Positions 221 to 15,489 of a stretch of 32,469 bases of DNA are shown piece after piece. Under the pieces are notes generated by a model. The model saw only the letters and a program-made list of their open reading frames with translations. It did not search any database and had not been told where the DNA came from. Where the stretch lies: positions 1 through 32,469 of the IMG/VR virus record IMGVR_UViG_3300031772_000172. One strand, written 5' to 3'. The position numbers and the translations under genes are program-made. This DNA comes from a virus. Positions within the stretch are counted from its first letter, which is position 1. Every line of letters begins with the position of its first letter.

Positions 221-736
221 TTATTGTTGTATAATAGATGGTGGAGCTTCACCTTTTGAATAAATTTTTGATACATTAAATTGATAAAATTGAAAACTAT
301 CAGTCCAATCGGCGTCTGATCCTGTATTCTTTCCTAGACGGAACTGTCCAATTTCCGCTAACAGTCCTTTATCTCGTTCTTTAATTGCTTTATCTAATTT
401 GTTAGATAATCCTTCAGAAAAGGGAATTCTATATAGTCTAGTTTTAGAACCTTCTGATTGTAACCAAAGTTCAATAAATTGAACTTTATTAGTTTCCACG
501 ACAACAAAACCCAATAATACGAATTTTTCTGGTATGTCTGTCGTAGGATAACCATATCCAAGTGAAGAATCGAAAATTTTAAAAGCAAAAAAAGCGCCTA
601 ATATTAATATTGGAATACCCAAAAATTTGATGTAATAGTTTAATTTTGTTTTAATCAACAAAAAGGCTTGAAAAACGGCAAACATAGTAATCAATAATGC
701 TAATGGAAGTAAGAATATAAGTTGTTCTTTAAACAT
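221..736 (-). CDS. Two-helix membrane protein, third gene of the ExbB/ExbD-like cassette
   Basis: This gene encodes 171 residues from ATG 736-734. A TTG six bases upstream is in frame, but the ATG has a well-placed GGAGAG (745-750) and sits two bases after the TGA of the upstream gene. Two hydrophobic helices are visible, about residues 5-28 and 35-55, followed by a soluble domain of about 115 residues rich in charged positions and ending in a Pro/Ile/Gln tail. I do not recognise the family. It is the last gene of a tightly coupled three-gene reverse-strand unit with an ExbB/TolQ-like and an ExbD/TolR-like protein, so an accessory role in that membrane complex is the best inference. There is no lipobox or cleavable signal peptide; the first helix looks like an anchor. 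Confidence 0.8.
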   Translation of the reverse strand: MFKEQLIFLLPLALLITMFAVFQAFLLIKTKLNYYIKFLGIPILILGAFFAFKIFDSSLGYGYPTTDIPEKFVLLGFVVVETNKVQFIELWLQSEGSKTRLYRIPFSEGLSNKLDKAIKERDKGLLAEIGQFRLGKNTGSDADWTDSFQFYQFNVSKIYSKGEAPPSIIQQ

Positions 737-738
737 TA

Positions 739-1425
739 TCAATGCTCTCCACTGTCCGGTGGTAATGGATATTTTTTGTTAGTAACAAACTGAATTTGAT
801 TGTGGTTAATATTTGTAATTTCTAAATCATCTGTAATAGTAAATGAAAAAGCAGTCTTTTCATCTCCAACAGTTTTTATTACAACATCTGTTACAACTAC
901 TTCTTGGTAAACTGGGTTAATGCGAGACAACGTTATTCTTGCATTATATGGGGGTTCTACTACTTTCACACCTTCTTGATCAAAATTTGTTCCAGTAGCT
1001 ATTGAATAAAAATGTACATTAACGGTGTATGTACCAGGAACTAAAGCTCGTAAAGTAATAACTTCTTTATTAAGACGAATGAATTCCCTTTTTCCATTAG
1101 GTAGATATATTAAATCACCAATGATACCTCGGTCATCACGTTCAAGATGCGAGTATGCAACGTCTTTCGTAGAAAAACTTACTACTTTATCCCCAGGCAA
1201 TTTAAACCATAAATCAATATCGTCATTTGCATAATCTGGCCAAGTCATTATAATTAAGACTTCAGCCTTTGATTCAACTTGATTTTTACTTTTTTCATTT
1301 ATTTGCAAAAAAGCCATAATAAACATTATGACGAATGCTATAATGATATTCATCAAAATATCTATGAAAGAAATATTAGTAGAATATTTTGAACTACTAC
1401 CAGTTATCTGCGTTTTCTTGATCAT
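739..1425 (-). CDS. ExbD/TolR/MotB-like single-pass membrane protein
   Basis: This 228-residue protein has a short polar N-terminus, one transmembrane helix (about residues 20-42) and a large exported domain (about 50-228). The helix opens with NISFIDILMNIIIAFVIMF, placing an aspartate (D22) where ExbD, TolR and MotB carry the ion-binding Asp in a V-x-P-x-I-D-type motif. In those families this residue couples proton or sodium flow through the partner channel to force generation. The exported part is predicted beta-rich and shows no OmpA-like peptidoglycan-binding motif, so it is not a standard MotB or ZorB. The start lies inside the end of the upstream ExbB-like gene (29-nt overlap), and its stop is two bases from the next ATG, so the three are probably co-translated. 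The family call rests on topology, the Asp and the neighbour. Confidence 0.65.
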   Translation of the reverse strand: MIKKTQITGSSSKYSTNISFIDILMNIIIAFVIMFIMAFLQINEKSKNQVESKAEVLIIMTWPDYANDDIDLWFKLPGDKVVSFSTKDVAYSHLERDDRGIIGDLIYLPNGKREFIRLNKEVITLRALVPGTYTVNVHFYSIATGTNFDQEGVKVVEPPYNARITLSRINPVYQEVVVTDVVIKTVGDEKTAFSFTITDDLEITNINHNQIQFVTNKKYPLPPDSGEH

Positions 1426-1888
1426 TTAAAAAATACTCAAGGCTAACAAGTTGTGTCCTAGTTAAAACCATAGTTAACAATCCGACTAAAGTTGCTAAAC
1501 ACGAAGTTGCCATACCGCTTGCCATTTGGGCTATAATTTCTGTTTGAGCGGCAGTAAAACCAGAAAAGGCTGGTCTTAGAGTTAAAATAAAACCAATAAC
1601 AGTTCCAATCATACCAAAAGCCATCATAGCCTCTGAAGCAAACCAAAACCCAGGCAAGCATATTGTTGCTTTATGAATATCAAGATCTATTTGTTTTTTT
1701 CTAGAAACACGCCAAGTATGAAATCCAATATAAAGTGTAATCAGAAAATATAGCACCAGAGTTATAAAACTCATTTTTGAAAGATCATATTCCCACAGTT
1801 TGATAAACAACCCAAGATTATAGACATATGCACTACTTACAATAGTTACGCAGAATAGCAACCACCACTTTAAAAACACATATTTCAT
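1397..1888 (-). CDS. MotA/TolQ/ExbB-like proton channel subunit
   Basis: This gene encodes 163 residues with four predicted helices: about 7-27, 39-60, 84-104 and 124-146. The last two carry the family signature: GMIGTVIGF (92-100) resembles the G-L-x-G-T-V-x-G segment, and SGMATSCLATLVGLL (124-138) resembles the G-x-a-x-A-L-x-T-x-x-G-L segment of MotA/TolQ/ExbB channels. These proteins form pentameric ion channels around a dimer of an ExbD/TolR/MotB partner, which is encoded immediately downstream. It is short for the family (ExbB and TolQ are usually 230-245 residues) and lacks the large cytoplasmic loop and the long cytoplasmic tail of ZorA. The start ATG at 1888-1886 has a strong GGAGG Shine-Dalgarno at about 1895-1899. 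It is the first gene of the reverse-strand unit and is divergent from the tail fibre gene at 1971. Confidence 0.75.
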   Translation of the reverse strand: MKYVFLKWWLLFCVTIVSSAYVYNLGLFIKLWEYDLSKMSFITLVLYFLITLYIGFHTWRVSRKKQIDLDIHKATICLPGFWFASEAMMAFGMIGTVIGFILTLRPAFSGFTAAQTEIIAQMASGMATSCLATLVGLLTMVLTRTQLVSLEYFLNDQENADNW

Positions 1889-4836: not shown

Positions 4837-5814
4837 ATGACTGTTACAGTATATCGTTCAACTGATATTAGTGCGCCAGTATTAAATGGTTCCGCTGGCT
4901 CTCTAGTCACAGTTTTAGATGCTTGTTTAGTTTTAGGATATGGCTCACAACTTCCTGCTGGATGGTCGGTTGCAGCTACCGCAACTAACAAACGAATTTA
5001 TAAACAAGGAATCGGTAGCAATCAACGCTTTTTGAAAGTCGATGATTCTGGTGCTGATGCTACAGCGGGACAAAATGCAAGAGTTTCTGGATGTTTAAGA
5101 TTTACAGATATCAATACATTAGTTGAAGAATTTCCTGGGAATCCATTAGGAGCCAGCGGAAATTCTTATTTGTTTTGGATAAAAAGTAATGCAACACCTG
5201 GAACTGCTCGTCCATGGATTATTATAGCTACATCAAGTTTTTTCTGGATTTATATTCAAACTATCGATGGGGGAGGAGTTACCATTCAAAATCAATTTTT
5301 TGGTGATTTTACACCAACAATGGCAAATGACAAATATAATACAATTATAACTGGCCAATTCTTCACTAGCACTCCAGACTCTGTTAATTTAACCTTAAGC
5401 ACTTCATATATTGTTTCATCACCAGTTGCGTTTTGTTTGAGAAATCTATTACAAATGCCAGGAACTGCATCTAATGGATTAATTTCCGAGTCATATTTTT
5501 TAAGTGGCACTAACTATGGTAACGGAGGGTTGGTTTACCCGAACACTCCAGATGATAAATTATATGTAACCAACATTAATGTTATCGAATCTCCAAAATA
5601 TGCAAGATCGACATCATCAACTAATCATGGATATATTAGAGGAATTCTGCCAGGAATGGTAGTGCCTTGCCATAATGGAAATTCATTTTTAAGTGCAGGA
5701 CAAACAATTACAGGAATAAACAATTTACCTGGGAAGACATTCGAAGCTAGACCAGTTGGGCAAGGTGCTTTAGCAAAGAAATGGATTTTATTCGAAACAT
5801 CAAATACGTGGTAA
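4837..5814 (+). CDS. Tail-associated paralogue family, copy 1
   Basis: The 325-residue product starts with MTVTVYRSTDISAPVLNGSAG and a LDACLVLGYGSQLPAGW segment, has a W-I-x-x-A-T-S-x-F-F-W-I-Y-I centre, a FFGDF motif, an R-G-x-L-P-G-M motif near the end, and closes with LFETSNTW. The same order of motifs occurs in the three genes that follow. I recognise this as a widespread phage protein family encoded next to tail fibre genes, usually annotated hypothetical. Its biochemical role is unknown; a virion-surface or adhesin-accessory role is inferred from location. The ATG follows the tail fibre stop after one base, so translation is probably coupled. Confidence 0.8.
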   Translation: MTVTVYRSTDISAPVLNGSAGSLVTVLDACLVLGYGSQLPAGWSVAATATNKRIYKQGIGSNQRFLKVDDSGADATAGQNARVSGCLRFTDINTLVEEFPGNPLGASGNSYLFWIKSNATPGTARPWIIIATSSFFWIYIQTIDGGGVTIQNQFFGDFTPTMANDKYNTIITGQFFTSTPDSVNLTLSTSYIVSSPVAFCLRNLLQMPGTASNGLISESYFLSGTNYGNGGLVYPNTPDDKLYVTNINVIESPKYARSTSSTNHGYIRGILPGMVVPCHNGNSFLSAGQTITGINNLPGKTFEARPVGQGALAKKWILFETSNTW

Positions 5815-5817
5815 CTT

Positions 5818-7092
5818 ATGACAACTACAGTTTATAGATCAACAGATGGCGGCGCACCAAAATTATCTAGCCAACCCGGAAGCTTAATTGAAGTTCTTGA
5901 TTATTGCTTGTTAAGTTCAGGTTGGACAAGACCGTATTTTAAGGCTGACGGTAGTGTGCCTTACGGATTCGTAGGAGCAGTATATCGTCAAGGTGCTGGT
6001 AATATGTATTACCTAAAAGTCGATGATGAATTTAATTCATTATCTCCCCCAGGAAGTGGTAATTTTTCAGTTGGAAATGCCGCTATAGTAACTGCTTATA
6101 AATCAATGTCAAGTTATACAAGTGGAACTGAGCCATTTCCATTCGTAAAAAGTTATGTTCCTGCTACTAATAACACAAGCTCACCGGGCGTCGTTGGGAA
6201 TTTGACTCCAATTTATTTTAGAAAAGCATCGGCGGGTGTTTCAGGCTCATTTTCTCAACCGGGCTCATTTACTGCATCATATGGTGCATTTAGCACGACT
6301 TTAACAAGTACAACTAGAATCCAAGGAGTGTTGATGGAAGGAACAACTTTAACATGTCCTTCGTGTGCGCCAACAGGCACTGTTCTTTCTTTTATCGATC
6401 CATTTAATGTAACAGTTTCATTACCAACAGCAGCACCCCAATCTGGAGTCACAGTTTCATATACGCAACTAGTGGGATTTGTTCCTTGGACGGTTATAGC
6501 AACAAACAAAGGTTTTTATATGTATGTCCAGTGGGGTTCTGTAAACAGTACTCAATTATATTATTTTGGAGATTTCGTTTCAACAAAAGATGACGAAACT
6601 AATAATTGTATTTTAATAGGAACAACAAGTACCTCCGCTTTTGTTGTATCAGTTTCTTCAGAATTCCTAAATATAACCGCATCAACAAATGTGGTTGATA
6701 CGTCGTCAAGTATTCCAGCGGCATCTTTCTTTGATTACAATCCTATTGCTCCAGCGCGAGGGAAGGACACAGGCGCGGATCAGATTAACGTTATCAGTGC
6801 TGGAAATACCGCAAACTTTGGAATATCTTACCCCGATCCAAGTACATCAAATTTATTTTTAAGCCCAATTCTATTATTAGAAAGATATGATCCGGGTGTC
6901 GGGGATGGATCAAGATATTCCACGGTAAGGGGAACTTTACCTGGATCATGGTCCACAGAAGCTTCAGCTTTAAATTATTTCTTGCACGCAGACACATTTA
7001 CTGGCGTGGGTGATTTAGCGGGTAAGTCTTTTGAATTTTTTAAATTAAATAATATTGCTTTGGTAGCAATCGAAACTTCGAGCACTTGGTAA
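5818..7092 (+). CDS. Tail-associated paralogue family, copy 2, with domain insertion
   Basis: This 424-residue member has the family start (MTTTVYRSTDGGAPKLSSQPG), a YLKVDDEF motif, the YYFGDF motif, RGTLPGSW near the C-terminus and an AIETSSTW end. It is about 90-100 residues longer than its neighbours. The extra length is mostly one block at about residues 141-221, between FRKASAG and PWTVIATNKGFY. In copy 1 the corresponding elements (FWIKSNATPG and RPWIIIATSSFF) are nearly adjacent. The inserted block is rich in Ser, Thr and Val and contains TCPSCAP, the only CxxC in the array. It reads like an acquired beta domain. The gene begins three bases after copy 1 ends. Confidence 0.8.
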   Translation: MTTTVYRSTDGGAPKLSSQPGSLIEVLDYCLLSSGWTRPYFKADGSVPYGFVGAVYRQGAGNMYYLKVDDEFNSLSPPGSGNFSVGNAAIVTAYKSMSSYTSGTEPFPFVKSYVPATNNTSSPGVVGNLTPIYFRKASAGVSGSFSQPGSFTASYGAFSTTLTSTTRIQGVLMEGTTLTCPSCAPTGTVLSFIDPFNVTVSLPTAAPQSGVTVSYTQLVGFVPWTVIATNKGFYMYVQWGSVNSTQLYYFGDFVSTKDDETNNCILIGTTSTSAFVVSVSSEFLNITASTNVVDTSSSIPAASFFDYNPIAPARGKDTGADQINVISAGNTANFGISYPDPSTSNLFLSPILLLERYDPGVGDGSRYSTVRGTLPGSWSTEASALNYFLHADTFTGVGDLAGKSFEFFKLNNIALVAIETSSTW

Positions 7093-14007: not shown

Positions 14008-15489
14008 ATGAATATAATAGCACCAACATTTGCCAAGAAAGCAAAAATTATTATCTTGGATGAAGTCAATTGTATAATTTCTGGACTACAACCAGATACA
14101 GTAGAGTATTTCTACAAAGAATATGCAATTAAAACAGAGTACTATTTTCACACCGCCGCATATCAACTTGGTAAGTGGGATGGGAAAGTTCATTTTTTCT
14201 CTGACATCGCTAAAACATATGTCTTTCTACTTCCAGAAATAATTCCGAAAATTGAAGGATTCGGTTATAAAATGGAATTGGATGATCGTAGAACTGGTAA
14301 AATCGTAGACGTAGATTTAATTGACGAAAATTACTTCTCTCATGTTATAAACAAAAAAACCGGAGAACCGTGGAAATTAAGATCGTTTCAAGTCGAATCA
14401 ATTAATGCTGTTCTAAAAGATGGACAAGGTATCATAATAGCTGGAACTGGCGGGGGCAAAACCTTAATTGACGCGTGCCTTTGTGAAGTATATGCAAGAA
14501 AAGGACTACGTACTATAACTATAGTTCCTAGTGGTTCGTTGGTAATAAAAACTAAAAAAGATTTTGCAGACTTAGAGTTGGATGTTGGTGAATATTCAGG
14601 TGATTATAAAGATTTAAATCATAAACACATAATTTCAACGTGGCAAGCGTTACAAAATGCAATGCACGTAGTGAAAGATTTTGATGTACTGATTGTTGAC
14701 GAATGTCATGGGGCACGAGCCGAAGTTATGAAGAAGATTTTAACTGAACATGGAAATAATATAGTTTACAGGTTTGGTCTTACTGCCACCCTTCCAACTG
14801 GTAAAGCAGATCGTTTTTCTGTTAAAGTTTGTTTAGGAGAACCAAAATATGAAGTTCCAGCATATGTGTTGATTGACCAAGGCTGGTTAGCTAAACTTAA
14901 TATCAGCATAATGCAACTAGATGATGAGCCCCACGTATTACCATTAGTAGATAAAGGATTCAAAATCGATTATGACTTAGAGAAAGATTACATATCGAAA
15001 ATAAAACCGCGATTAGAATGGATCGCAGAATTTCTTCGAGAGAAATCAATTAATAAAAAAGGAAATGTTTTGTGTTTGGTTGGAAACATACCCATCGGCA
15101 AAAAATTAACTAAACTTTTACCAGAAGCAATATTCATTTACGGAAAAGATAATACTAAATTAAGAGAAGAAGTATATGATCTGTTTGAGAACAATGATAA
15201 TCTTTTAATTATAGCTACAGTTCAGATTGCTGGAGTAGGTATAGACATTGATAGAATTTTTAATTTGGTCTATATAGATGGTGGTAAATCGTTTATACGA
15301 ACCATTCAATCAATTGGGAGAGGATTGCGTAAAGGAAGAGATAAAGATCATGTTGATGTCGTTGACATCTGTGGAAATTTGAGGTATTCTAGAGAACACT
15401 TACAAAAAAGAATTAAATATTATAAAAAAGCAAAATACCCATACAAAAAATATAGCGTAGAATATAGAGAACAAAATGCTAATCTTTGA
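14008..15489 (+). CDS. uvsW: UvsW, superfamily 2 DNA/RNA helicase
   Basis: The 493-residue product is close to T4 UvsW (about 503). UvsW unwinds branched DNA and R-loops and drives the switch from origin-dependent to recombination-dependent replication. The N-terminal ~120 residues include YQLGKWDGKVHFF, matching the UvsW DNA-binding domain. Motif I is AGTGGGKT (145-152), motif II is VDECHGA (DECH at 231-234), motif III is TAT (259-261), and motif VI is QSIGRGLRKG (434-443). ATVQIAGVGIDI (403-414) precedes motif VI and corresponds to motif V. No strong ribosome site is visible upstream, so coupling to the UvsY-like gene is likely. Its 3' end overlaps the next gene by 14 bases. Confidence 0.92.
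   Translation: MNIIAPTFAKKAKIIILDEVNCIISGLQPDTVEYFYKEYAIKTEYYFHTAAYQLGKWDGKVHFFSDIAKTYVFLLPEIIPKIEGFGYKMELDDRRTGKIVDVDLIDENYFSHVINKKTGEPWKLRSFQVESINAVLKDGQGIIIAGTGGGKTLIDACLCEVYARKGLRTITIVPSGSLVIKTKKDFADLELDVGEYSGDYKDLNHKHIISTWQALQNAMHVVKDFDVLIVDECHGARAEVMKKILTEHGNNIVYRFGLTATLPTGKADRFSVKVCLGEPKYEVPAYVLIDQGWLAKLNISIMQLDDEPHVLPLVDKGFKIDYDLEKDYISKIKPRLEWIAEFLREKSINKKGNVLCLVGNIPIGKKLTKLLPEAIFIYGKDNTKLREEVYDLFENNDNLLIIATVQIAGVGIDIDRIFNLVYIDGGKSFIRTIQSIGRGLRKGRDKDHVDVVDICGNLRYSREHLQKRIKYYKKAKYPYKKYSVEYREQNANL

Follow-up and report, generated by a model that had tools for sequence, protein, structure and literature searches.

The DNA analysed here, a stretch of 32,469 bases that we refer to as the window, has no end repeats and is a fragment. 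On its reverse strand lie three genes, A, B and C, that overlap or abut one another: A and B share 29 nt, and gene C has, besides its ATG, an alternative TTG start (742) six bases upstream, and begins inside or right next to the B stop. The features are collected in Table 1. The initial annotation had described this trio as overlapping or abutting reverse-strand genes with a strong ribosome site of their own, and had called it the only unit on its strand. We found the same genes behind a Shine-Dalgarno sequence, and since the other minus-strand ORFs of the window all overlap long plus-strand genes, A, B and C are the only plausible genes on that strand.

Table 1. Coordinates of the cassette in the window and of a gene found 3' of gene C at four related loci
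Feature	Position	Strand	Basis
Gene A, compact four-helix channel subunit of the MotA/TolQ/ExbB family (163 aa; assigned from sequence)	1397..1888	(-)	Pfam, profile against PDB, TolQ alignment, conservation
Gene B, one-helix partner with Asp and predicted periplasmic beta-sandwich (228 aa)	739..1425	(-)	ORF, AlphaFold2, conservation
Gene C, two-helix membrane protein with predicted b-b-b-a-b domain (171 aa from ATG)	221..736	(-)	ORF, AlphaFold2, HMM, alignment
Shine-Dalgarno GGAGG, 7 nt ahead of the gene A start codon	1896..1900	(-)	Sequence
Gene 3' of C, (lipo)protein with YFPL/WFPL...Y motif	L127:10857-11564, L131:8425-9117, L134:10251-10940, L146:10171-10881		Weak DUF3108-like match

In connection with the origin of the window, the sequences nearest to its helicase (493 aa, 14008-15489) come from jumbo phages, among them XacN1 (385 kb), CM1 and Atu_ph07, and the closest relative of the cassette is found on a 379-kb viral contig (L008), a jumbo-phage relative of the window. 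From these two affinities we take the window to be, in all likelihood, part of a jumbo phage. The cassette sits in the tail region of the window, and on L008 it is likewise inverted against flanking fibre-like genes. Elsewhere in the window, two adjacent paralogous plus-strand ORFs (4837-5814 and 5818-7092), both starting MT.TVYRSTD..AP, follow a fibre-like gene of 954 aa and probably encode tail-fibre or decoration proteins.

Gene A matched the Pfam family PF01618 (MotA_ExbB) with E=7.2e-6 and 26.2 bits, which passes the curated gathering cut-off of 22.9, and the same family was matched by 8/8 members of the first alignment of A (E up to 1); for both reasons we do not regard ORF A as a chance reading frame. 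When a profile of A was compared with the PDB, ZorA was the best match (7e-5), followed by MotA (1e-4) and TolQ (8e-4), with PomA and ExbB also matched, so the relationship to MotA/TolQ/ExbB proposed in the initial annotation was recovered. These matches always span the last two membrane helices, i.e. both pore helices (TM3-TM4), of the four that hydropathy places at about 8-31, 34-60, 80-109 and 118-150. The protein contains the motifs GMIGTVIGF and SGMATSCLATLVGLL, and the residues conserved in its family are D35, G92, G95, T96, G99, G125, T133 and G136. In an alignment with E. coli TolQ, the motifs GxxGTVxG and xxATxxG fall on IGLFGTVWGI and LIATAIGLF, which places T96 and T133 on TolQ Thr145 and Thr178. 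These two threonines and Asp23 of TolR are functionally important, and TolR carries a conserved Phe at position 32 (review, PMC7391070). Among the phage copies of A, T96 is kept in 82/86, and the position of T133 holds T or S in 85/86. Judged by its sequence, A belongs to the MotA/TolQ/ExbB proton channel family. The phage proteins are compact (median 154 aa) and have no large cytoplasmic loop, as had been claimed for the window protein, but this does not extend to the whole family, because in several A proteins from chromosomes TM2 and TM3 are separated by about 60-80 additional aa.

According to hydropathy, B has a single helix (14-46), and its AlphaFold2 model (pLDDT 87) consists of a helix at 16-42 followed by about 10 strands that form a beta-sandwich; AlphaFold2 models cover B and C, and their input alignments were made without rows from the reference phages. 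The spacing of D22 and F31 in the helix, an Asp and then a Phe nine residues on, equals that of D23 and F32 in TolR; D22 is present in 86/86 phage copies and F31 in 56/86. The most conserved positions of B are in the ectodomain, where D69, D71, D97 and E121 are invariant in all copies (86/86 from phages and 51/51 from chromosomes). The residues listed as invariant there also include W62 and G100, while R96 and D98 are nearly invariant, and the acidic cluster of D69, D71, D97 and E121 could bind a metal. One chromosomal clade of about 11 loci (L092, L098, L101, L132, L141-L144, L147-L149) lacks the transmembrane Asp, with FxVMLFK in place of FxDxLFN, and keeps the ectodomain site. This loss indicates that not every member of the wider family is ion-coupled, and it suggests a role of the ectodomain beyond ion coupling in that clade.

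The absence of an OmpA-like domain from the partner protein, as initially reported, agrees with the beta-sandwich model and with the Pfam search, in which B matched no family, ExbD/TolR and OmpA included. A profile search of the PDB gave no relative of B. Foldseek of the B and C models against the PDB, a comparison proposed initially, returned nothing below E=0.001. Against viral models, the B model found phage proteins that are uncharacterised, the best of them at E=2e-6 and TM 0.45. Two BFVD entries, S0A5K4 (Cellulophaga phage phi4:1) and A0A2I7QY18, were matched with prob 1.0 and TM of about 0.4-0.5, and are possibly distant relatives of the B ectodomain as modelled. The B helix gave a weak match to ZorB (E=0.015). 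We also considered DUF2135 as the identity of the ectodomain and rejected it, as a sub-threshold match (E=0.017) on one chromosomal B was all that was obtained, with none on phage B.

Gene C has two helices by hydropathy, and AlphaFold2 (pLDDT 84) places them at 2-29 and 34-58, ahead of a b-b-b-a-b domain. In the alignment of C relatives, the G that comes after TM2 (LGYGYP) is conserved, as is an R (TRLY/PRLY). Taken together, motifs, Pfam and hydropathy are consistent with the composition first proposed for the cassette, an ExbB/MotA-family four-helix protein, a one-helix partner with D22 and a two-helix protein, and the AlphaFold2 models agree for B and C.

The distribution of the cassette was followed mainly through B. 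A tblastn search of 50,697 phage records yielded 25 to 27 records, all of Rhizobium or Sinorhizobium phages, and the same 27 were recovered with two B queries from other lineages. The cultured carriers, of 59-171 kb, include 16-3, P10VF, RHph_N34, RHph_I1_18 and RHph_N3_19; in the cultured Rhizobium and Sinorhizobium phages the three genes are annotated as 'hypothetical' or by number only, and a full-text search gave nothing tying the cassette to phage 16-3. Scanning viral contigs with single sequences produced no matches for B and two close relatives only for A. A profile built from the B alignment, on the other hand, detected 108 relatives, 80 of which were retained for analysis. We then ran HMMs of A, B and C over every ORF of 92 phage loci (86 after a few duplicates were removed), and found A in 92/92, B in 92/92 (one each) and C in 89/92, the three loci without C ending at contig ends. 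The order is A>B>C on one strand, usually with overlapping genes or gaps within 20 nt, and where homing or HNH endonuclease inserts separate the genes, as in some reference phages, A, B and C are intact. Since all of these loci but two, which were found via A, were collected without A or C as query, the co-occurrence of A and C with B is largely independent evidence. The linkage of the three genes is strict.

The same trio is present in bacteria. A genome scan with a closer B alignment gave 15 bacterial loci, mostly from Devosia and otherwise from Hyphomicrobiales, Rhodospirillales, Acetobacteraceae and Burkholderiales MAGs. Among genomes sampled from the class of Devosia, B occurs in 58/385 (about 15%), and among those sampled from the phylum in 16/398. 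In all, 56 bacterial loci were compared, from Devosia, other alphaproteobacteria and some Burkholderiales; a few of them are overlapping pieces of one genome, and one (L150), judging from the genes around it, is a prophage. The order A>B>C is found at 54/56, so the three-gene synteny that the initial annotation proposed to search for extends to both phages and bacteria. Copies on Azospirillum megaplasmids come on top of the 56 loci, and in Azospirillum brasilense Sp7 the trio is on a large plasmid. In a tree of B, the phage/chromosome label requires at least 3 changes, forced by the starred branches: the 16-3-like phages group with chromosomal copies of a stand-alone type (L117-L126), a single phage (L029) is placed with AT-rich genomes, about 1 Mb long, that we read as SAR11-like from their size and composition, and the other phages are placed around the Devosia/PQQ clade. 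The A-B-C system is common to hosts and phages.

Within phage genomes the cassette is found in replication, early, middle, late, lysis and tail regions. It has a sigma factor and recombination nucleases nearby in Pootjesviridae, and tail sheath and tube genes nearby in a T4-like group. The tail-region setting noted initially thus holds for the window and L008 but not for most other carriers. We rejected the idea of an accessory cargo of the tail region, as the position differs between phage lineages and copies occur on bacterial chromosomes as well; the tail location is incidental. Owing to this variable position, expression timing gives no single role.

Envelope-facing neighbours do recur. 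A secreted trypsin-like protease gene is directly upstream of A in the 16-3-like phages and prophage L150, an SbmA/BacA-like gene is downstream of C at five loci (L036, L040, L066, L073 and L074; PDB SbmA E=7.5e-92), and a lipoprotein-like gene comes after C at another five (L127, L130, L131, L134 and L146). The L040 copy of the SbmA-like gene aligns from about SbmA residue 78, its N-terminal part being missing, and the (lipo)protein with the YFPL/WFPL motif is a possible outer-membrane partner. In L004, L090, L091 and L150 the protease gene and A-B-C look like a four-gene operon, and in L071 and L082 the gene upstream of A is SbmA-like by eye. ClpP-like, ClpS and Hsp70/Hsp20 genes adjoin the cassette in some phages. 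In L035, L023 and L030, ClpS is right after C, with Hsp70 before A in L035 and Hsp20 before A in L023, so that one group of phages has the cassette among proteostasis genes. Apart from the metabolic, kinase-like and lysis genes discussed below, the other chromosomal copies, including most of type 2, have no telling neighbours.

We think it probable that A-B-C is an inner-membrane complex of the MotA/TolQ/ExbB type, driven by the ion-motive force, and that it represents the phage version of a host system, with the envelope of the infected cell as its target. The motor nature of the complex is a supported inference from conserved sequence features, and we infer complex formation, ion flow, a force or conformational output and an envelope target. 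A would form a ring-shaped channel and B its central, Asp-bearing partner, so that ion flow would move or switch the periplasmic beta-sandwich; C would be a two-helix accessory joining A and B, much as Ton and Tol each have a third component. The phage cassette would then be a shortened form of the three-gene chromosomal system of alphaproteobacteria and some Burkholderiales. Coupling to the proton motive force (PMF) is argued from the conserved ion path (D22, T96, T133), and a different load is argued from the beta-sandwich that replaces the OmpA or TolR domain in B. Against a motor speak the restriction of the A family match to TM3-TM4, the lack in phage A of the cytoplasmic loop of known ring complexes, and the chromosomal B clade that has no transmembrane Asp. 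Most likely the phage complex works on the infected-cell envelope in maintenance, remodelling or exclusion, and we would call no single phage role better than unlikely.

One such role, which the initial annotation had raised together with the blocking of TonB/Tol-dependent rivals and which we hold to be unlikely, is superinfection exclusion or interference, in which the complex would keep the DNA of a second phage from entering or would poison the host A-B-C, Ton, Tol or Zorya complexes via mixed rings. The predicted inner-membrane location, the early- or middle-region placement in N3_19, N34, P10VF and I1_18, the presence of temperate phage 16-3 among the carriers and the existence of homologous host complexes that could be mimicked are all in line with this idea. 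However, the phages retain every subunit together with the ion-path residues, beyond the needs of a dominant-negative decoy; there is no special linkage to immunity genes, and the Zorya-like features of a long tail, an OmpA domain and effector genes are absent. An auxiliary role in uptake or salvage, with the motor energising envelope transfer of peptides, metals or other nutrients in support of host metabolism during infection, is rather unlikely in our view. It draws on the invariant acidic, metal-like site in B, on the SbmA/BacA importers and the secreted or Clp proteases that adjoin phage copies, and on chromosomal neighbours: PQQ alcohol dehydrogenases lie near the Devosia and L133 copies, and in L128 and L129 a PQQ-associated ABC transporter, a beta-propeller, a PedC-type permease and a substrate-binding protein are divergent from A, with a TonB receptor in L129. 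This last cluster presumably resembles the lanthanide-uptake (lut) clusters of methylotrophs. Yet such neighbours are missing from most type-2 chromosomal copies, the Devosia loci amount to a single lineage, the cassette includes no TonB-like protein, and Clp genes are common in phages anyway.

A reading without a motor, in which A-B-C is a regulated ion channel or an envelope-stress sensor whose B domain binds a ligand or Ca2+ while C reports, appears rather unlikely as well. The conservation of B, highest in the ectodomain site, would suit it, as would the chromosomal clade that keeps this site while lacking the transmembrane Asp, and metallophosphoesterase-like and protein-kinase-like genes (recognised from sequence) come after the operon in L132, L141 and L142. 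On the other hand, the Asp is found in all phage copies and the pore Thr/Ser in nearly all, as would be expected if ion coupling matters. Very unlikely, finally, is an accessory function in lysis, by which a proton-conducting or force-producing complex would help to open the outer membrane at the close of infection. In prophage L150 an endolysin-like gene, a holin-like gene and that of the trypsin-like protease come, in this order, before A, B and C (lysis genes identified from their sequences), lysozyme genes precede the cassette by about 4 kb in RHph_X2_25 and TM3_3_14B, and a cell-wall-hydrolase-like gene is near the cassette at 7 loci. A consistent linkage to endolysin, holin or spanin genes was nevertheless not observed: beyond L150 and, loosely, these two 16-3-like phages, the cassette mostly lies in replication or middle regions at a distance from lysis genes, and the copies on chromosomes show no link to phage lysis. 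Collapse of the potential by holin would, moreover, bring a PMF motor to a halt.

Returning to the reading as an envelope motor, a broader version, which we offer tentatively as a possibility, would make A-B-C a further PMF-powered envelope machine of alphaproteobacteria beside Ton, Tol and the stators, with a ligand- or metal-binding beta-sandwich head, taken up several times by phages to control the infected-cell envelope. Proton-driven membrane motors form a small and thoroughly studied group, and our search of the open-licence literature found no paper on phage-encoded motors of the ExbB/TolQ type. A strictly linked trio with invariant ion-path residues in phages and invariant ectodomain residues, carried by dozens of phage lineages and by a sizeable share of the sampled genomes of one class, points to a conserved, nameless function. 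Classical systems are suited to tests of A-B-C, namely Rhizobium phage 16-3 on Sinorhizobium meliloti and A. brasilense Sp7 with its own copy.

In comparison with known systems, A is a member of a known family, while the three-gene system is unnamed in Pfam, NCBIfam, PADLOC, PHROGs and the literature searched: neither B nor C reached the threshold of any family in Pfam, NCBIfam or PADLOC, and their PHROGs matches were weak and unnamed. Membership in Zorya, Ton, Tol or the stators was rejected on domain tests, in agreement with the misfit to Ton, Tol, flagellar and Zorya systems pointed out initially. The likeness to Zorya lies in the ZorA match of A and the weak ZorB match of the B helix, but A lacks the ZorA tail, there is no OmpA domain, scores are far below the NCBIfam cut-offs, and no Zorya effector genes were recognised near the cassette. 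DUF2135 beta-domain proteins resemble chromosomal B below the cut-off and phage B not at all. With the MotA/MotB and PomA/PomB stators the cassette shares a four-helix channel protein and an Asp-bearing one-helix partner, but B is without the OmpA-like peptidoglycan-binding domain, phage A is without the large loop, and there is no flagellar context. ExbB-ExbD-TonB belongs to the same superfamily and has the same kind of ion path, whereas B has no ExbD Pfam match, C is not TonB-like and no TonB partner was identified. The Tol-Pal system differs in that A is short and four-helical, the beta-sandwich of B does not match TolR in sequence, the two-helix protein C is without the long helix of TolA, and the cassette includes neither TolB nor Pal. 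The two are alike in that some chromosomal copies are trailed by a lipoprotein gene, A carries the GxxGTVxG and IATxxG motifs of TolQ together with their two functional Thr, the partner helix has the D...F spacing of TolR, and a channel subunit, a one-helix Asp partner and a third membrane protein are encoded in one operon, as in TolQ-TolR-TolA.
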